Shown here in pieces: positions 13,661 through 22,009 of a DNA stretch of 64,000 nucleotides; position 1 is the stretch's first letter; every line of letters starts with the position of its first letter. Under the pieces are notes generated by a model. It made no database searches. It had not been told where the DNA came from and saw only the letters and a program-made list of their open reading frames with translations. Location of the stretch: assembly GCF_015207035.1 (NCBI RefSeq), contig NZ_JADEXQ010000003.1:62001-126000 (forward strand). Reading direction: 5' to 3'. Origin of the DNA: Romeriopsis navalis LEGE 11480. GTDB lineage: Bacteria > Cyanobacteriota > Cyanobacteriia > Leptolyngbyales > Leptolyngbyaceae. The translations under genes were made by a program, and so were the position numbers.

Positions 13661-13801
13661 GGCGATTCGTCGCACTAAATTGTTGCGCTTCATCCTTGAT
13701 CATCCAACGCGTTTGCAACGTGTAGGAATCGATTTGTGCGGACAGCTGGTCCAAAATTCGCGATAATGATTCATCGTTGATGGCTTTTGTAGGTTTGTTT
13801 T

Positions 13802-14338
13802 ATGCCAGTTCCCGACGGGTTTATCGAAGTTGGCAAGATTGTCGCGGCCCAAGGCATTCGGGGTGAAGTGCGGGTTTATCCCAGTTCCGATTTTCCTGAG
13901 CGCTTTATGGTCAAGGGTGAGCGGTGGCTACAGCGGCCCAATAGTCAGACTGCCGAATCGATCAAATTGCTGAAGGGCTATTACCAAGAAGGCAAAGGCT
14001 TATACATCGTCAAGCTGGAGGGCGTGCAGGATCGCAATCAAGCGGAAAAGTTGCGCAATGCCTTACTGCTGGTGCGGGAAGACGATAAGCCAGAACTGGA
14101 CGAAGGCGAATTTCATATTTCTGATCTAATCGGTTTGCCCGTTTACCAACAAGCTGATCAAGCATTAGTTGGTACAGTGACAAATCTGTTCCACGCTGGG
14201 CATGATTTGCTGGAAGTCGCAGTGGAAGGTCGGGATAACCCGGTCTTGATTCCGTTTGTGGAAGCGATGGTGCCTGTGGTGGATCTCGACGAACAGCGGA
14301 TTGAGATTACGCCACCACCGGGACTTTTGGATTTATAG
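13802..14338 (+). CDS. rimM: ribosome maturation factor RimM
   Basis: The 178-residue protein has the RimM N-terminal beta-barrel motif VGKIVAAQGIRGEVRVYP and the PRC-barrel C-terminal half (DLIGLPVYQ... VLIPFVEAMVPVVDL). RimM binds S19 and assists 16S rRNA processing at the 30S head. Length and motif order match the family. It is not next to trmD, rpsP or rplS, the usual bacterial partners, which is common in cyanobacteria. Confidence 0.95.
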   Translation: MPVPDGFIEVGKIVAAQGIRGEVRVYPSSDFPERFMVKGERWLQRPNSQTAESIKLLKGYYQEGKGLYIVKLEGVQDRNQAEKLRNALLLVREDDKPELDEGEFHISDLIGLPVYQQADQALVGTVTNLFHAGHDLLEVAVEGRDNPVLIPFVEAMVPVVDLDEQRIEITPPPGLLDL

Positions 14339-14465
14339 CGGTGGGTTTTGACGGGTGAACGATCGACGGCGATTGGTAGCATTCGCAGATCGGCTCAGCC
14401 GGTGGCTTATAATGATCAATCGACTGCCGCAGTGCAGCGTTGGTGATATTCCGAGGAACCCCCAA

Positions 14466-15020
14466 ATGGCGAGCTTGCGTTTAGAAAATGGCACAACTCT
14501 GACCGACTTAGCGGCGATCGCGCCTGAACTCGCCCCGCTGAATATTCAGCTGAGCCATTGGGCCGTCGGTGATGATGCAACGGTGCAGGAATTATTGCAA
14601 AAAGCGGCGTTGGGGGACGAGGAGAAAGAGCAGGTTTTGGTCGGGGTCGATCGCTATTTCGAGCAAATGAAAGCCGAAGCTGGCTATACTAGCCGCGATT
14701 TGATCGTGATTCACCCCGAGGTGCCGGGACTCGATGTGATGCTGGCCAAGTTCGATAAAATCCATACCCATGCCGATGACGAAGTGCGCTACATCGTTGA
14801 AGGCGAGGGGATTTTTGGGTTTGTGCGTCCGGATGGTTCGCAGGTGGAGCTGACGGTGCAGGCAGAAGAATACATCAATGTCCCGGCGGGAACGGAGCAC
14901 TGGTTTTATCTGACTGCGGCCAAGCGGATTAAAGCCGTGCGTTACTTTATCGGGACTGATGGTTGGGTGCCGGAGTATACGGGCACGGCGATTGCGTTTC
15001 GCGATTCGGCGGCAGTTTAG
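14466..15020 (+). CDS. mtnD: acireductone dioxygenase (MtnD-like)
   Basis: The 184-residue cupin protein carries the metal ligands HTHADDEVRY (H-x-H-x4-E) and the fourth His in PAGTEHWFYL, with KFDKIHTH and RYFIGTDGWVP as family context. Acireductone dioxygenase converts 1,2-dihydroxy-5-methylthiopent-1-en-3-one to 2-keto-4-methylthiobutyrate in methionine salvage (Fe form). ATG at 14466 (GAGG upstream) is preferred to the 37-codon-longer frame from 14355, which is not conserved in the family. No other salvage genes are adjacent. It follows rimM by 127 bp and may share its transcript. Confidence 0.92.
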   Translation: MASLRLENGTTLTDLAAIAPELAPLNIQLSHWAVGDDATVQELLQKAALGDEEKEQVLVGVDRYFEQMKAEAGYTSRDLIVIHPEVPGLDVMLAKFDKIHTHADDEVRYIVEGEGIFGFVRPDGSQVELTVQAEEYINVPAGTEHWFYLTAAKRIKAVRYFIGTDGWVPEYTGTAIAFRDSAAV

Positions 15021-15029
15021 TGGATTGAT

Positions 15030-15069
15030 GACGCCCATTGACCGAATTATCATCCTGAGGGCGTCTTCG
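15030..15069 (+). terminator. weak terminator between convergent genes
   Basis: GACGCCC (15030-15036) pairs with GGGCGTC (15059-15065), followed by TTCGTT. The loop is long (22 nt), so this is a weak call; its position between convergent mtnD and the lipoprotein gene supports it. Confidence 0.4.
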
Positions 15070-15100
15070 TTATCACACCGTCAGGATTGTCCGGCACATT

Positions 15101-15586
15101 TTATCGGCGCATTTTGTTTTCCATTGGCCCCAGGAGAAATTCCCGTCGCCTTGCTTCTTCGTTGGCACGGATACTATTGGACAGGCGTCGACCGGCGGCG
15201 TTTCTCTCCTTTTCCTCGCGGGCGCGGGCGGCCCATACGAGTTTTGCTTCGGCATCTCTTTGCTGAATGGCAATGAGTCGGCGGCGGGCTGCTTCACGTT
15301 GTGCGGCGGCTCGTCGATCGGCGGCCTGTTCGGCTAAACGTTGTGCGACTGCGATGCGATTGGCTTTGTCTTTAGCGGCTGCGATGCGATCGGCTTCTGC
15401 TTTGGCTTTGGCTTGGGCTTCTGCGGTGGCGACGATCGTCTGTGCTGCGACTTCAACGGTCGCGGTTGTCTGTGGGGTGAGTGACGCGGCCGTATCCCCT
15501 GCAAATGGCGATTGAATCGTGACTTTAACGCAACCAACACTCAAGATGCTGACGGTTGCCGCTGCGACTAAAACTGGTAATTTCAT
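15101..15586 (-). CDS. Ala/Arg-rich lipoprotein, coiled coil
   Basis: The ATG at 15586 gives 161 residues starting MKLPVLVAAATVSILSVGC, a lipoprotein signal with lipobox LSVGC (Cys19). The rest is mostly one Ala/Glu/Arg/Lys-rich helical stretch (AEAQAKAKAEADRIAAAKDK onward), predicted coiled coil, ending in a short block RRLSNSIRANEEARRRE. The signal sequence and this terminal block are both shared with the lipoprotein at 18102-18752, which carries an SH3 domain instead of the long helix. Probably a membrane-anchored periplasmic protein; function unknown. Longer TTG/GTG starts upstream would bury the lipobox. Confidence 0.72.
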   Translation of the reverse strand: MKLPVLVAAATVSILSVGCVKVTIQSPFAGDTAASLTPQTTATVEVAAQTIVATAEAQAKAKAEADRIAAAKDKANRIAVAQRLAEQAADRRAAAQREAARRRLIAIQQRDAEAKLVWAARAREEKERNAAGRRLSNSIRANEEARRREFLLGPMENKMRR

Positions 15587-16269
15587 TTGCTTGAACGTCT
15601 TGGATCTTGTGGAACACAACTTGCTGGAATTTATCCAATTTGCATCGGTCGCCGACGCTTTGATCGGGACTCGATGTAGATTGGACACGCCTTTTCCTCA
15701 GAATGCCCTGACGGTGATGTTTGTTGTTCAGTGATCTTGCTTGAAATGCGACGTTTATATGGAAGATGCGAGGGCAATTTAAGTTGATCGCAGGCCGCTA
15801 GTTGAGACAAAACCACATTATCAACTGTTGCTCAGAACTTCACTCTAAGGGCCACTTGCCTGTGAACTCGCACGGGCATTTCATTCGGACCTCATCGTCA
15901 ACACATCGAGCTTTCGAGCAATTTATGGCTCACAGTTAGCACGGTGAGATCAAACCAAATGTTCGAGTCGAATCTCCGAGCAGAGATGGGATCGAATTAA
16001 TCTGCTTGATATTGAGGATTGGTCGAGCTATTCCAGTATTTCTGATTGATGGTCGAATCGCTTCAGTGATTTTGCCGGAGCTGAATGTTTGATTGGTTGG
16101 ATGCTGTTTGGTTTGGTGCGATCGCCGCGAATTTCTAGGGCCAAATTGCTGATTTTAGCGACAGGTTTTGATATGGGTGGCGGTGTGGCTAATGTGACCT
16201 GTCGATCGGATATGGGGCTTACTAAGAGCAGTTCATCTTGCTCTCGCTCATTTTGCTCAACGCTACATC
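15587..16269. other. intergenic region, no supported gene
   Basis: Frames here on both strands (for example 15631-15816 minus and 16089-16331 plus) lack motifs and ribosome sites. The region must supply the promoter of the lipoprotein gene and of the plus-strand gene starting at 16270. Confidence 0.5.
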
Positions 16270-17121
16270 ATGAGACATCGCATATTAGAATCCAGTCCCC
16301 ACCGGTTATTAATTCGGTTGGAACAGGATAATTTTGAACGACTCCGAGCTGGATGTTTGCTCGGACTGCTGGTGGTGGGGCTGGTGCTGTCGCTGTAATA
16401 TTTGAATACCAAAACCATACTGTTGTGTGAACGGCGGCATGATCTTTGCCTGACTAAACAGGTCGGGCGGGTCTGGCCCATCAAACCCGATACACGGGTG
16501 TTTGCCATTAGTCAGGCCAGTCATATCACGACTCGAATGGTACGTTCGGGACGTTCCAGAACCCGTAAGGCCTTTGTGGTGTTGCGGGATGGGACGGAGA
16601 TCAAGTTTCGATTTAATCGAGACGTGGCGAAAATTAATCGTTATTTAGCGAATCGTCAGCCGGACAAGCTATCTTTGACCTATCACGATCCCACTACGGC
16701 TTGGTTGTTGAGTTTTAGCTGGTTGATTGGGATTGTGATGTCGATGGTGTACGGCTTTTCCTGTGGGCTGTATCAGACGATTCGTTTGGAGCGATCTCGC
16801 CGCATTCTCGAAATCCAGCAGCACCAGAATGTCTGGGGGCGATTTTGTCAGCGGGTGTTTGGGCAATTAGTTTGGATTGGTCAGTCGATTCAGGCGGTGC
16901 CACTGTGCGTTGCTTGGGCCAGGGTTGAGGCAATTCGTACCGATGGTGATAGTTGGTGGCAAGCATTCTGGAACCAGCGACGCAATGGTAAAAAACTGCA
17001 TACGCTCAAGCTCTATTTCGGTGATCATCAGCGACCGATCAAAATTTATCAAACCACTAATTATCAACAATTGATGAGCGTCGCCGAGAGACTGGAATCG
17101 TTTATGCGATCGCCGCATTAA
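16270..17121 (+). pseudogene. membrane protein gene split by an in-frame TAA stop; paralogue of the next gene
   Basis: ATG at 16270 reads 42 codons (MRHRILESSPHRLLIRLEQD ... VVGLVLSL), then TAA at 16396-16398, and then continues in the same frame as YLNTKTILLCERRHDLC... to a stop at 17121. The neighbouring gene (17186-18034) encodes the same architecture without interruption: MRYRIFQ start, hydrophobic helix, CDRATNQC pair aligned with CERRHDLC, a second helix pair, and a C-terminal domain with NVWGRFCQRVFGQ matching NGVGRFCSRILGQ. So a single base change has truncated the protein in its first membrane helix. The remaining 239 codons look intact, which fits a recent mutation, a sequence error, or reinitiation (a TTG at 16402). 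Confidence 0.8.
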
Positions 17122-17185
17122 ACCGCTCCAGGCAATTTTTGCAGAAGTTAATCTGTGACACCAGTTAATCCGCTGAGGACATCGG

Positions 17186-18034
17186 ATGCGTTACCGGATC
17201 TTTCAACCTGACGATCGGACTTTGCGCTTGGAGACTCATCCGAGTTTGGGGCAATGGGCTTTAGTGGTGAGTTTTGCGCTGTTATCCTGCGTGATGACGG
17301 CAGTGACGGTTAATGGCATTAATGCGCGGCAGGTATTTCAGTGTGATCGTGCCACGAATCAATGTCAGCTACAGGAAGTCGGGTTGCTATTCCGCGATGC
17401 ATTGCCACCGAAAACATTGTCGTTGAATCACATTGTGGCTGTTTATCAACGGACGGAGCGACGATCGAGCCGCAATTCCAAAACTTATTTGGTGTTTGCC
17501 CTGCGGGATACTGCTGGGCGAGAATACTCGACGAGTTTACCCGCTGCTCACAATGTTGAACCGATTCGGCAGTTTCTGAACCAACCGCAGCGGCAACAGC
17601 TCAATCTGGTGGATTATCAGGTGGGTCGCAAACTGTTGCTGGGCTTTCTGACTGGTTTTGGATGGCTGAGTGCGGTTTGTTGGGGGGCGCTCTGTGGCAA
17701 GCAGCAGCGCGTGCTACTTCAACGTGATCAGCAGACCTTAGAGATTCGCCACCACTACAACGGGGTGGGGCGATTTTGTTCACGGATCTTGGGGCAGCGG
17801 GTTTTCCCGAGGGTTGAAGATTCCCAAATTTTTGCTTGGTCGGATATTCGCGATGTCGAGGTCTATACGCGCGATCGTCGCGCCCTCACGCGCCGCGAAA
17901 AGTCATTGCCGAAGCATACGCTGCGATTGTGTTTGAATGATCCGGAAACGCCGATCGACCTGTTGCATCTCGATGATCAGCGCAAATTAATTGATGTCGC
18001 GGACACCGTCAATGCTTTTAGGCAGATCAATTAG
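17186..18034 (+). CDS. membrane protein with two helical hairpins, function unknown
   Basis: The 282-residue protein has a first membrane helix at about 27-48 (LVVSFALLSCVMTAVTVNGI), a soluble stretch with a Cys pair (CDRATNQC) and a beta-like section (TYLVFALRDTAGREYS), a second hydrophobic region at about 152-175 (LLLGFLTGFGWLSAVCWGAL), and a C-terminal cytosolic domain that looks like a small PH-like fold (VLLQRDQQTLEIRHH ... WSDIRDVEVYTRD). The start has GAGG nearby. It is the intact paralogue of the broken gene just upstream, 64 bp away. No named family is recognised. Confidence 0.78.
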   Translation: MRYRIFQPDDRTLRLETHPSLGQWALVVSFALLSCVMTAVTVNGINARQVFQCDRATNQCQLQEVGLLFRDALPPKTLSLNHIVAVYQRTERRSSRNSKTYLVFALRDTAGREYSTSLPAAHNVEPIRQFLNQPQRQQLNLVDYQVGRKLLLGFLTGFGWLSAVCWGALCGKQQRVLLQRDQQTLEIRHHYNGVGRFCSRILGQRVFPRVEDSQIFAWSDIRDVEVYTRDRRALTRREKSLPKHTLRLCLNDPETPIDLLHLDDQRKLIDVADTVNAFRQIN

Positions 18035-18064
18035 CGATAAGCATCTTAAAAGGCTTATCGCTAA
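18031..18064. terminator. perfect 12-bp hairpin overlapping the stop codon
   Basis: TTAGCGATAAGC (18031-18042) and GCTTATCGCTAA (18053-18064) form a perfect stem with a 10-nt loop. The left arm includes the stop codon of the membrane protein gene. It sits between convergent genes and is symmetrical, so it may end transcripts from both sides, although a T-run is missing. Confidence 0.6.
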
Positions 18065-18101
18065 ACTGATGCGCGGATTCTGTCGTTAATTTCGTCCTGC
18101 T

Positions 18102-18752
18102 TTATTGGCTATTACGAACGCTATTGGATAAGCGTTCTGCCGCGGCTGCGCGTTCATTTGCTTCTATAGTATTGGCAAGTCTTTGTCCTGCAGCTGCGCG
18201 TTCATTTGCTTCTATAGTATTGGCAAGTCTTTGTGCTGCTGCGCTTCGGGCTGCTTCTTGCTGGGCAATTGCATTTGCCTGTCGGGCAGCAGCGGCGCGT
18301 GCGGCGTTTTGCTGGGCAATTGCATTTGCCTGCCGGGCGGCGGCGGCTCCGGCTGGAGAGACATCTTGACCGTTGCTACCGACTAAGAAGGATGTGGATA
18401 CCCAGCCACGAATGTTGCCCGATGTGACTTCGAACCACTCACCATTACGATCGCTAGTGTGGAATGTCACGGGTGAACCGTGGGGGGCAGAACCGACGAT
18501 CGCGGCGCCTGTTGAATTGCTAGCTCGAATATTTAATGTACTACCATCATTGGTTTTGACGAAGTAGTTGACCGGCGTTGGAGCGGGTGCGGGCGCTTGT
18601 GGTGCGGGTGCGGCCGTGGCGGTATTATTGGCGGCAACGGGTGCGGCTGTAGGTTGTGGCGCGGCCGCATTGTTTGAACCAAAGGAAACTTTCATACAGC
18701 CGATGCTCAAAAGGCTGAGAGCGGCTGCGGTCAGAAAAACTGGTAATTTCAT
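18102..18752 (-). CDS. SH3-domain lipoprotein with C-terminal 16-residue repeats
   Basis: The 216-residue product starts MKLPVFLTAAALSLLSIGC, a lipoprotein signal with lipobox LSIGC. A Pro/Ala-rich linker leads to a bacterial SH3 (SH3_3-like) domain at about 63-125 (STLNIRASNSTGAAIVGSAP ... GWVSTSFLV), which in secreted proteins often binds peptidoglycan. The tail is Ala/Gln-rich with two nearly identical 16-residue units (RLANTIEANERAAAGQ) and a degenerate third (RLSNSVRNSQ). The signal and the RL(S/A)N(S/T)I motif are shared with the lipoprotein at 15101-15586. Likely anchored in a membrane facing the periplasm. Confidence 0.85.
   Translation of the reverse strand: MKLPVFLTAAALSLLSIGCMKVSFGSNNAAAPQPTAAPVAANNTATAAPAPQAPAPAPTPVNYFVKTNDGSTLNIRASNSTGAAIVGSAPHGSPVTFHTSDRNGEWFEVTSGNIRGWVSTSFLVGSNGQDVSPAGAAAARQANAIAQQNAARAAAARQANAIAQQEAARSAAAQRLANTIEANERAAAGQRLANTIEANERAAAAERLSNSVRNSQ
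18145..18240. repeat. 48-bp in-gene tandem duplication
   Basis: Two consecutive 48-bp units (18145-18192 and 18193-18240) differ at only a few positions and encode the 16-residue repeat near the C-terminus of the SH3 lipoprotein. The period keeps the frame, so copy number can change without breaking the gene. Confidence 0.8.
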
Positions 18753-19224
18753 AGGAAATTCTGCTTGAGAACACGTTGGATGAATTAATCAATTCTCAAG
18801 CCCACAGCGAAATGTCGATCGCTGCTACGTTTCGTCACATCGGTGATGCCTAAGAATCTTATGTCTGAGTATGCCCATGCAGTGAGAGTCGGTTATTGGT
18901 GATATTGCCTATGCGATCGTCATCGCGCTCAGGACTTGTAGTTTCGCTGCGATTTAAAGCCGCGATCGTCACGGTCGCAATGTTCAAATATCTGATAATT
19001 GAACAGAAATGATGTCAGCGTTTTCTGATTAAAGGTGGCGCGATCGAGCGCATTATCAGACGTAATCGTCAATTCCTTGAGTGAAATCGCTGATGCCAGT
19101 CTAATGGCATCAATTTAGCTATGAGTTGAGATCCGTAAATCCTCCATTCACGCATTTTTCACCCTTGTTAGAACTAAACAAGAAATGCGTTTGCTATAAA
19201 TTATCCGCCTAAGGGAGTTGGCCG
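18753..19224. other. intergenic region between divergent genes
   Basis: No frame with a ribosome site or motif was found. The stretch carries several CGATCG palindromes and supplies promoters for the SH3 lipoprotein gene (minus) and the gene at 19225 (plus). Confidence 0.5.
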
Positions 19225-19737
19225 ATGACTGTCAGTCAAGATTTCTTTGCCACACTTGCTAGTATGTACCAGTCCGAGCAGTCTGGTGCGATTTTCGGGA
19301 TTACCGATAACGATCGCATGTTAGTTGTGGCTTTTGATGCCGGGACAATCAAAGGCATGCGGTTTGGGCGTTTAACGGGAATTGATGTTCTCGCTGAGCT
19401 ACAGCACGTTGAGTTCAAGAGTTTTGCCGTCAAGCTCGACAAGTCGCTGCCGCTCCAGCCTGGGTTGCCAGCAACCGTCGAGATTTTTACACAACTTGTA
19501 TCCAGGATGCCCACTGAGGTACTCGCAGAAGTGCTCGTGAGTTCTGCTACGCAGGAGCAAGGCACTAGTGCAAACTCCAAAATAGCTGACGGTCAAGCCG
19601 TACCGGCAGAGGATACACCCGCCCAGCCGCAACCACAGCGGAAAATGATGTACCGTGGCCAGGTGGTCGAAGCTCCGCCACAAGCGCCGGCTCGCCGGAG
19701 TCGGATGATGTATCGTGGTCAACCAATTGGCGAATAG
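19225..19737 (+). CDS. hypothetical protein with two C-terminal YRG motifs (DUF4278-like)
   Basis: ATG at 19225 follows GGGAG at good spacing. The 170-residue protein has an N-terminal globular domain (to about residue 110) with a beta-rich, DUF4388-like look (GAIFGITDNDRMLVVAFDAG, GRLTGIDVLAELQH), a Gln/Pro/Ala-rich linker, and a tail in which KMMYRGQVVE and RMMYRGQPIG repeat. The MxYRG pattern is reminiscent of DUF4278, a short cyanobacterial element of unknown role, here duplicated. Domain names are tentative. Monocistronic, ending before a symmetrical hairpin. Confidence 0.65.
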   Translation: MTVSQDFFATLASMYQSEQSGAIFGITDNDRMLVVAFDAGTIKGMRFGRLTGIDVLAELQHVEFKSFAVKLDKSLPLQPGLPATVEIFTQLVSRMPTEVLAEVLVSSATQEQGTSANSKIADGQAVPAEDTPAQPQPQRKMMYRGQVVEAPPQAPARRSRMMYRGQPIGE

Positions 19738-19763
19738 CCAGAATTCTAGGAAAAAGCAGAACT

Positions 19764-19792
19764 TCATCAAATTGATGAAATCAATTTGATGA
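19764..19792. terminator. 13-bp inverted repeat between convergent genes
   Basis: TCATCAAATTGAT (19764-19776) and ATCAATTTGATGA (19780-19792) are exact reverse complements around a 3-bp centre. Placed between the convergent YRG-motif gene and pyrG, it is probably a bidirectional terminator, although it is AT-rich and lacks a clear T-tail. Confidence 0.5.
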
Positions 19793-19866
19793 GGATGTCT
19801 CCTCGATCTAGCCGTTCCGCACCACCATTTCTCGCATGATCAATCGGTAATGCCCATAATGTTGGC

Positions 19867-21856
<1,990 letters not shown>

Positions 21857-22009
21857 ATGTATCAATCAGACTCTCAAAAAGACTTAAAACTGCTTTTAGC
21901 ATTTGTGATGACGGCGAGTTTGCTGCTACTGGGGATTGGCTTGAATTCGGTGGTACAAGTCAGTACCCGTGATACCGGCCTCTGGACGCAGAATTTGGCG
22001 AGTTGGTAA
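21857..22009 (+). CDS. small single-helix membrane protein, 50 aa
   Basis: ATG at 21857 follows TGGAG at good spacing. The product MYQSDSQKDLKLLLAF... has a charged N-terminus, one hydrophobic segment (LLLAFVMTASLLLLGIGL) and a short polar tail (STRDTGLWTQNLASW). The size and layout fit a small membrane-associated protein; no family is recognised. Upstream codons to a TTG-type start at 21800 have no ribosome site. Confidence 0.55.
   Translation: MYQSDSQKDLKLLLAFVMTASLLLLGIGLNSVVQVSTRDTGLWTQNLASW

Follow-up and report, generated by a model that had tools for sequence, protein, structure and literature searches.

The window analysed here (the whole stretch of DNA, 64,000 nt) carries on its forward strand a tandem pair of genes for EROS-like, double-PH membrane proteins, one of which is interrupted by an in-frame stop codon. 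The interrupted copy (16270..17121, +) consists of 283 codons plus a final stop, with the internal stop counted among the 283. Its pre-stop part (16270..16395, +) comprises 42 codons and encodes an MRxRI start, the N-terminal strands and a first transmembrane helix (TM1), the latter placed according to the structure model of the intact copy; the TAA (16396..16398, +) falls between TM1 and a conserved C-x-R...C motif; and the post-stop frame, taken from a TTG (16402..17121, +), provides 239 codons for a PH-like domain, a second transmembrane helix (TM2) and a second PH-like domain. The intact paralogue follows at 17186..18034 (+), encodes 282 amino acids and has a Shine-Dalgarno-like site before its ATG, which is absent at the broken copy. 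At the end of the intact gene lies a terminator-like inverted repeat (18031..18064) with 17-nt arms that are 88% complementary and have no spacer, and which presumably acts as a terminator.

An earlier note on this DNA had described an in-frame TAA that splits one of two paralogous membrane-protein genes and leaves the frame the same on either side, and our data bear this out. The ATG at 16270, the TAA and the terminal TAA (17119-17121) share one frame, the TAA at 16396-16398 is the sole internal stop of 16270-17121, and there are no frameshifts. The further statement that only one codon is changed stands insofar as no other stop or frameshift is present; in its literal form it cannot be shown, as no close orthologue was found for comparison. 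The post-stop part can be aligned along its full extent with the intact neighbour (61/242 identical, 24-25%, E 3e-20), and when the stop is written as X, the interrupted and intact proteins are collinear from end to end. Both parts of the interrupted frame thus show homology to the neighbour, with the MRxRI start, the Cys pair with its Arg (the C-x-R...C of the family, kept in both window copies), the second hydrophobic stretch and a GRFC motif common to the two proteins; apart from the Arg and the family assignment, these features had been noticed before.

The open post-stop frame exceeds what chance would give: of 20,000 dinucleotide-random frames of 239 codons, 2 were without a stop. Other results place the pre-stop and post-stop parts in one gene. 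A profile built from five relatives of other genomes, with the window sequences excluded (A3), matches 16279-16827 through the stop (E 3.8e-6, 27.9 bits), and a 22-row profile that includes the member on contig C134 and leaves out both window copies (A4) scores the interrupted protein at 30.2 bits when its first 44 residues are kept and at 25.7 bits when they are removed. Shuffled versions of the first 42 residues reached the observed score of 30.2 in 3 of 1,000 trials, and therefore the pre-stop stretch belongs to the gene. Codon usage of the 239-codon frame lies below that of all 43 same-size pieces of the window's other long open reading frames (ORFs), with the first 42 codons at rank 11 of 332; since codon usage of the intact copy is likewise low and both copies are atypical, it is uninformative as a test of decay.

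The pair is flanked on either side by one of two lipoprotein-like paralogues (15101-15592, −, and 18102-18752, −; E 3e-9) that share a signal of the type MKLP...GC, the second of which carries an SH3_3 domain; thus, two gene pairs are duplicated side by side at this locus. A promoter scan returned 1 site against a mean of 2.8 in shuffles, that is, fewer than expected by chance, and the window holds 41 sites of GCGATCGC, a sequence linked to cyanobacteria. Together with a true Ycf4 gene elsewhere in the genome, these sites mark the organism as a cyanobacterium.

A family of two-domain membrane proteins in cyanobacteria

Close orthologues of the pair were found neither in 57 other relatives nor in 41 other genomes of the same family or order, none of which is of the same genus. 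Searches with the single proteins matched only their own genome (1/58 and 1/42 genomes), a search of the same family and order with the pair profile brought up no orthologue, and scans of genome contigs, viral contigs and PLSDB plasmids for relatives of the pair found nothing. The two window proteins have no Pfam or NCBIfam assignment; one NCBIfam row (E 0.031) fell far short of its cut-off and was disregarded. Profiles reached further. The profile of the pair (A1) finds distant members in 10 of 388 genomes, its own included, and with the five-row A3 profile at E 0.01, the count of genomes with a match rises to 183 out of 388 in this cyanobacterial class. An hhalign comparison of the pair with this family gave a probability of 98.4 (E 4.8e-15), and in their own genome A3 identifies three members, namely, the intact copy (45.2 bits), the member on contig C134 (43.5 bits) and the interrupted copy. 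The family, which has no name, is thus widespread among cyanobacteria.

Its members follow a common plan of a transmembrane helix, a PH-like domain that opens with the invariant C-x-R...C, another transmembrane helix and a second PH-like domain; the invariant residues of A4 are M1, C50, R52, C60 and F131. The protein is built of two related domains, as the two halves of the family profile align with one another (probability 99, E 2.9e-18). A structure model of the intact copy, built from the two window sequences at a moderate mean pLDDT of 64, predicts two strands followed by TM1 at residues 21-45, a PH-like domain to about residue 132 and, after TM2 at 148-169, a second strand-rich domain with a terminal helix; a model from a single sequence had a mean pLDDT of 44 and was too poor for use. 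These results confirm the description of the pair as paralogous membrane proteins and sharpen it to an EROS-like, double-PH family with two transmembrane helices.

The family-type domain also occurs in another setting. In one genome (L010:1366-3321, G194:C31), a domain with the transmembrane helix, the C-x-R...C and the PH-like fold is fused in-frame, through a proline-rich linker, to a cysteinyl-tRNA synthetase (PF01406, 438 bits). The product may be a membrane-anchored CysRS, whose anchor would differ from the CAAD anchors found on other synthetases of cyanobacteria.

Age of the stop and its possible origins

The window copies are old duplicates. In a tree of 33 rows, in which long rows were trimmed at 285 residues and from which the fused L010 and a truncated frame (L016) were left out, they are sisters (99/94), a grouping that unites two long branches and that, as the tree tool warns, may be false. 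Their end branches measure 1.58 changes per column for the intact and 1.75 for the broken copy, so the broken copy was not evolving much faster. Under neutral evolution, the probability of finding no further stop is down to 0.05 once 0.08 changes per site have accumulated, and when frameshifts are counted at an assumed indel rate, the probability of neither stop nor frameshift is 0.05 already at 0.03 changes per site. Given that no second lesion is present, the stop is hence either recent or a sequence error, and as a lesion it is young compared with the pair itself. Two points count against a recent nonsense lesion: the atypical codon usage of both copies, and the weaker family match of the broken copy (27.9 against 45.2 bits with A3), which could reflect a longer period of relaxed selection.

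We consider it probable that one copy of this old tandem pair recently suffered a nonsense mutation just after TM1. Among the three readings put forward in the earlier note, a recent pseudogene fits best, with no second lesion, key residues kept and a branch that is not notably long; reinitiation fares worse, with weak ribosome pairing and a product that would lack TM1 and the N-terminal strands. In the proposed course of events, the old pair would encode a two-TM, double-PH-domain EROS-like membrane protein, and one copy would recently have gained a nonsense mutation just past TM1, the TAA being genuine and not due to a wrong base call. Translation would then stop after 42 residues, the remainder of the broken copy would not be made as a working protein, and the function would be carried by the intact copy together with the third, distant copy on contig C134. 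A single-stop lesion in a duplicated gene is ordinary. A TAA produced by a base-call or assembly error, with the gene intact in the organism, is a less probable reading that we nevertheless take seriously: the draft genome comprises 251 contigs, and one affected codon in an otherwise clean frame that keeps its conserved residues is equally expected from an error. Against it stand the 33 other ORFs of at least 200 amino acids picked in the window, which extend up to 1,156 amino acids, so the sequence is not generally poor.

Stops are also seen elsewhere in the family. Among the 150 best-scoring matches of the A3 profile, four have an internal stop (G229, G333, G335 and G040), compared to none among the 150 best-scoring matches of a Ycf4 control, a difference that by our own Fisher estimate (~0.12) is suggestive and not significant. 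In G229, a TAG lies just after TM1; G333 (L055, contig C1) and G335 (L056, contig C83) each have one in-frame TAA, near profile positions 88 and 203, respectively; and the stop in G040 is merely an early C-terminal end. The near coincidence of the window TAA and the G229 TAG is not taken as a pattern, since by our own arithmetic one of the three other stop-bearing members would lie no more than 4 profile positions from the window stop by chance with a probability of about 0.1. At the G229 stop, all four congeners fetched have a sense codon (83-86% DNA identity). Private changes of G229 after the stop amount to 18 nonsynonymous and 37 synonymous over 215 codons, where the neutral opportunity is about 1550/680, and the four intact congeners sum to 20 and 37; the G229 gene was hence also under selection until lately. 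A separate set of family fragments (L049-L053) is found in genus g46 (G170, G083, G145 and G136), with a lone N-terminal part, frameshifted pairs and, in G136, an N-terminal part located elsewhere that continues into unrelated sequence, which suggests frequent duplication and decay.

These members bear on whether the locus could be a split working gene, in which a 42-residue TM1 peptide is followed by a restart at TTG 16402 (or at a GTG or ATG farther downstream) to give a PH-TM-PH protein. The TTG lies three bases past the stop, and the pairing energies with an assumed anti-Shine-Dalgarno sequence include a weak site of −2.8 kcal/mol at TTG 16402 and none at ATG 16270 (+1.9 kcal/mol), compared to −5.6 kcal/mol for the intact gene. 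The closely similar position of the stop in a second family member, G229, would also accord with a restart. However, the G229 gene shows ordinary purifying selection and has intact congeners, as expected for a recent lesion or an error; those other members without the N-terminal part whose loci were inspected in detail are frameshifted (G083 and G145), rearranged (G136) or start near the beginning of a contig (G010:C36); and by homology to the model, the restarted product would be without TM1 and the N-terminal strands and could adopt another topology. On this model, a working restarted protein is unlikely, and we regard the split gene as an improbable account of the locus.

Readthrough of the TAA at a useful level, by leakiness or recoding, is in our judgment hardly to be expected. 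Neither selenocysteine nor pyrrolysine is encoded by TAA, as recoding to them requires TGA or TAG, and TAA also ends 12 of the 34 long ORFs of the window, the interrupted frame included. What speaks for readthrough is the good folding of the RNA between 16350 and about 16680 compared with most of the locus: over 274 windows of 13800-22000, 7 of the 12 lowest folding z-scores start within 16350-16680, with the lowest (−5.3) at 16530. This RNA has no match in Rfam, which speaks against readthrough. We can name no reason for the good folding and count it against the recent nonsense mutation that we prefer. Conserved in-frame stops with dN/dS below 1 have moreover been reported in bacteria by Belinky et al. 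2021 (PMC7918605). A stop that is tolerated or used, with both the TM1 micropeptide and the restarted PH-TM-PH protein made as an on/off or topology switch that arose in two separate family members at almost matching positions (this TAA and the G229 TAG), is very unlikely.

Belinky et al. 2021 (PMC7918605) also argue that many bacterial in-frame stops are not pseudogenes and distinguish annotation artefacts, sequencing errors, pseudogenes and functional premature stops as their sources. The present locus resembles their cases in having a single in-frame stop with conserved sequence on either side; it differs in that their stops were required in at least two genomes, whereas the present case concerns a single genome.

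Comparison with EROS and Ycf4

The family is linked to EROS/CYBC1, the chaperone of the NADPH oxidase subunit NOX2, by both sequence and fold. One relative (L027) passes the Pfam model Cybc1_Eros (PF15169) with 35.3 bits against a cut-off of 27, the only one of ten relatives scanned to do so; neither window copy matches this model. Two EROS-sized, single-PH frames of another genome, L066 (G010:C62:129284-129727) and L059 (G010:C60), of 171 and 181 amino acids, respectively, match PF15169 as well, L066 over the cut-off, and both one-PH and two-PH forms seem to occur in the family. The sole match of the A4 profile in the PDB is EROS (8kei_D, E 6.5e-6). In the two fold searches this structure again ranks first (Foldseek E 0.064; VIA Z 7.3, rmsd 5.0, 109 residues). 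Both scores are low enough that they may reflect no more than a common fold, as VIA itself cautions for Z under 8, and the VIA match list for residues 46-137 is dominated by PH folds.

In EROS, as PMC9767466 describes it, the two transmembrane helices are inserted between PH strands 2 and 3. The intact-copy model, at its moderate mean pLDDT of 64, likewise combines a PH fold with two transmembrane helices and also opens with two strands ahead of TM1. It differs in that the cyanobacterial protein has an extra PH-like domain between the transmembrane helices, which bears the invariant Cys pair. To judge from this model, the family may be built on the EROS plan, with one more PH-like domain set between the helices, and, by analogy, the pair is probably a membrane-protein assembly or stability factor. 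No title on a cyanobacterial EROS family appeared in the literature searched, which was a partial library.

The family context is more useful than the lesion itself. PF15169 is over its cut-off in 1 of 194 genomes, compared to 183 of 388 with the five-row profile; the family thus lies mostly beyond the Pfam EROS model. Through the profiles, a family with members in close to half of the cyanobacterial genomes covered is connected to membrane assembly factors of the EROS/Ycf4 type, to which the cyanobacterial form adds a Cys-bearing PH-like domain. If the family acts as a chaperone, its cyanobacterial clients become a testable question. Ycf4 (PF02392) is a photosystem I assembly factor and, according to a review (PMC13296129), the plant orthologue of EROS. 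The window proteins are distinct from it: neither matches PF02392, and the true Ycf4 of this genome sits at a separate locus (E 1.9e-72).
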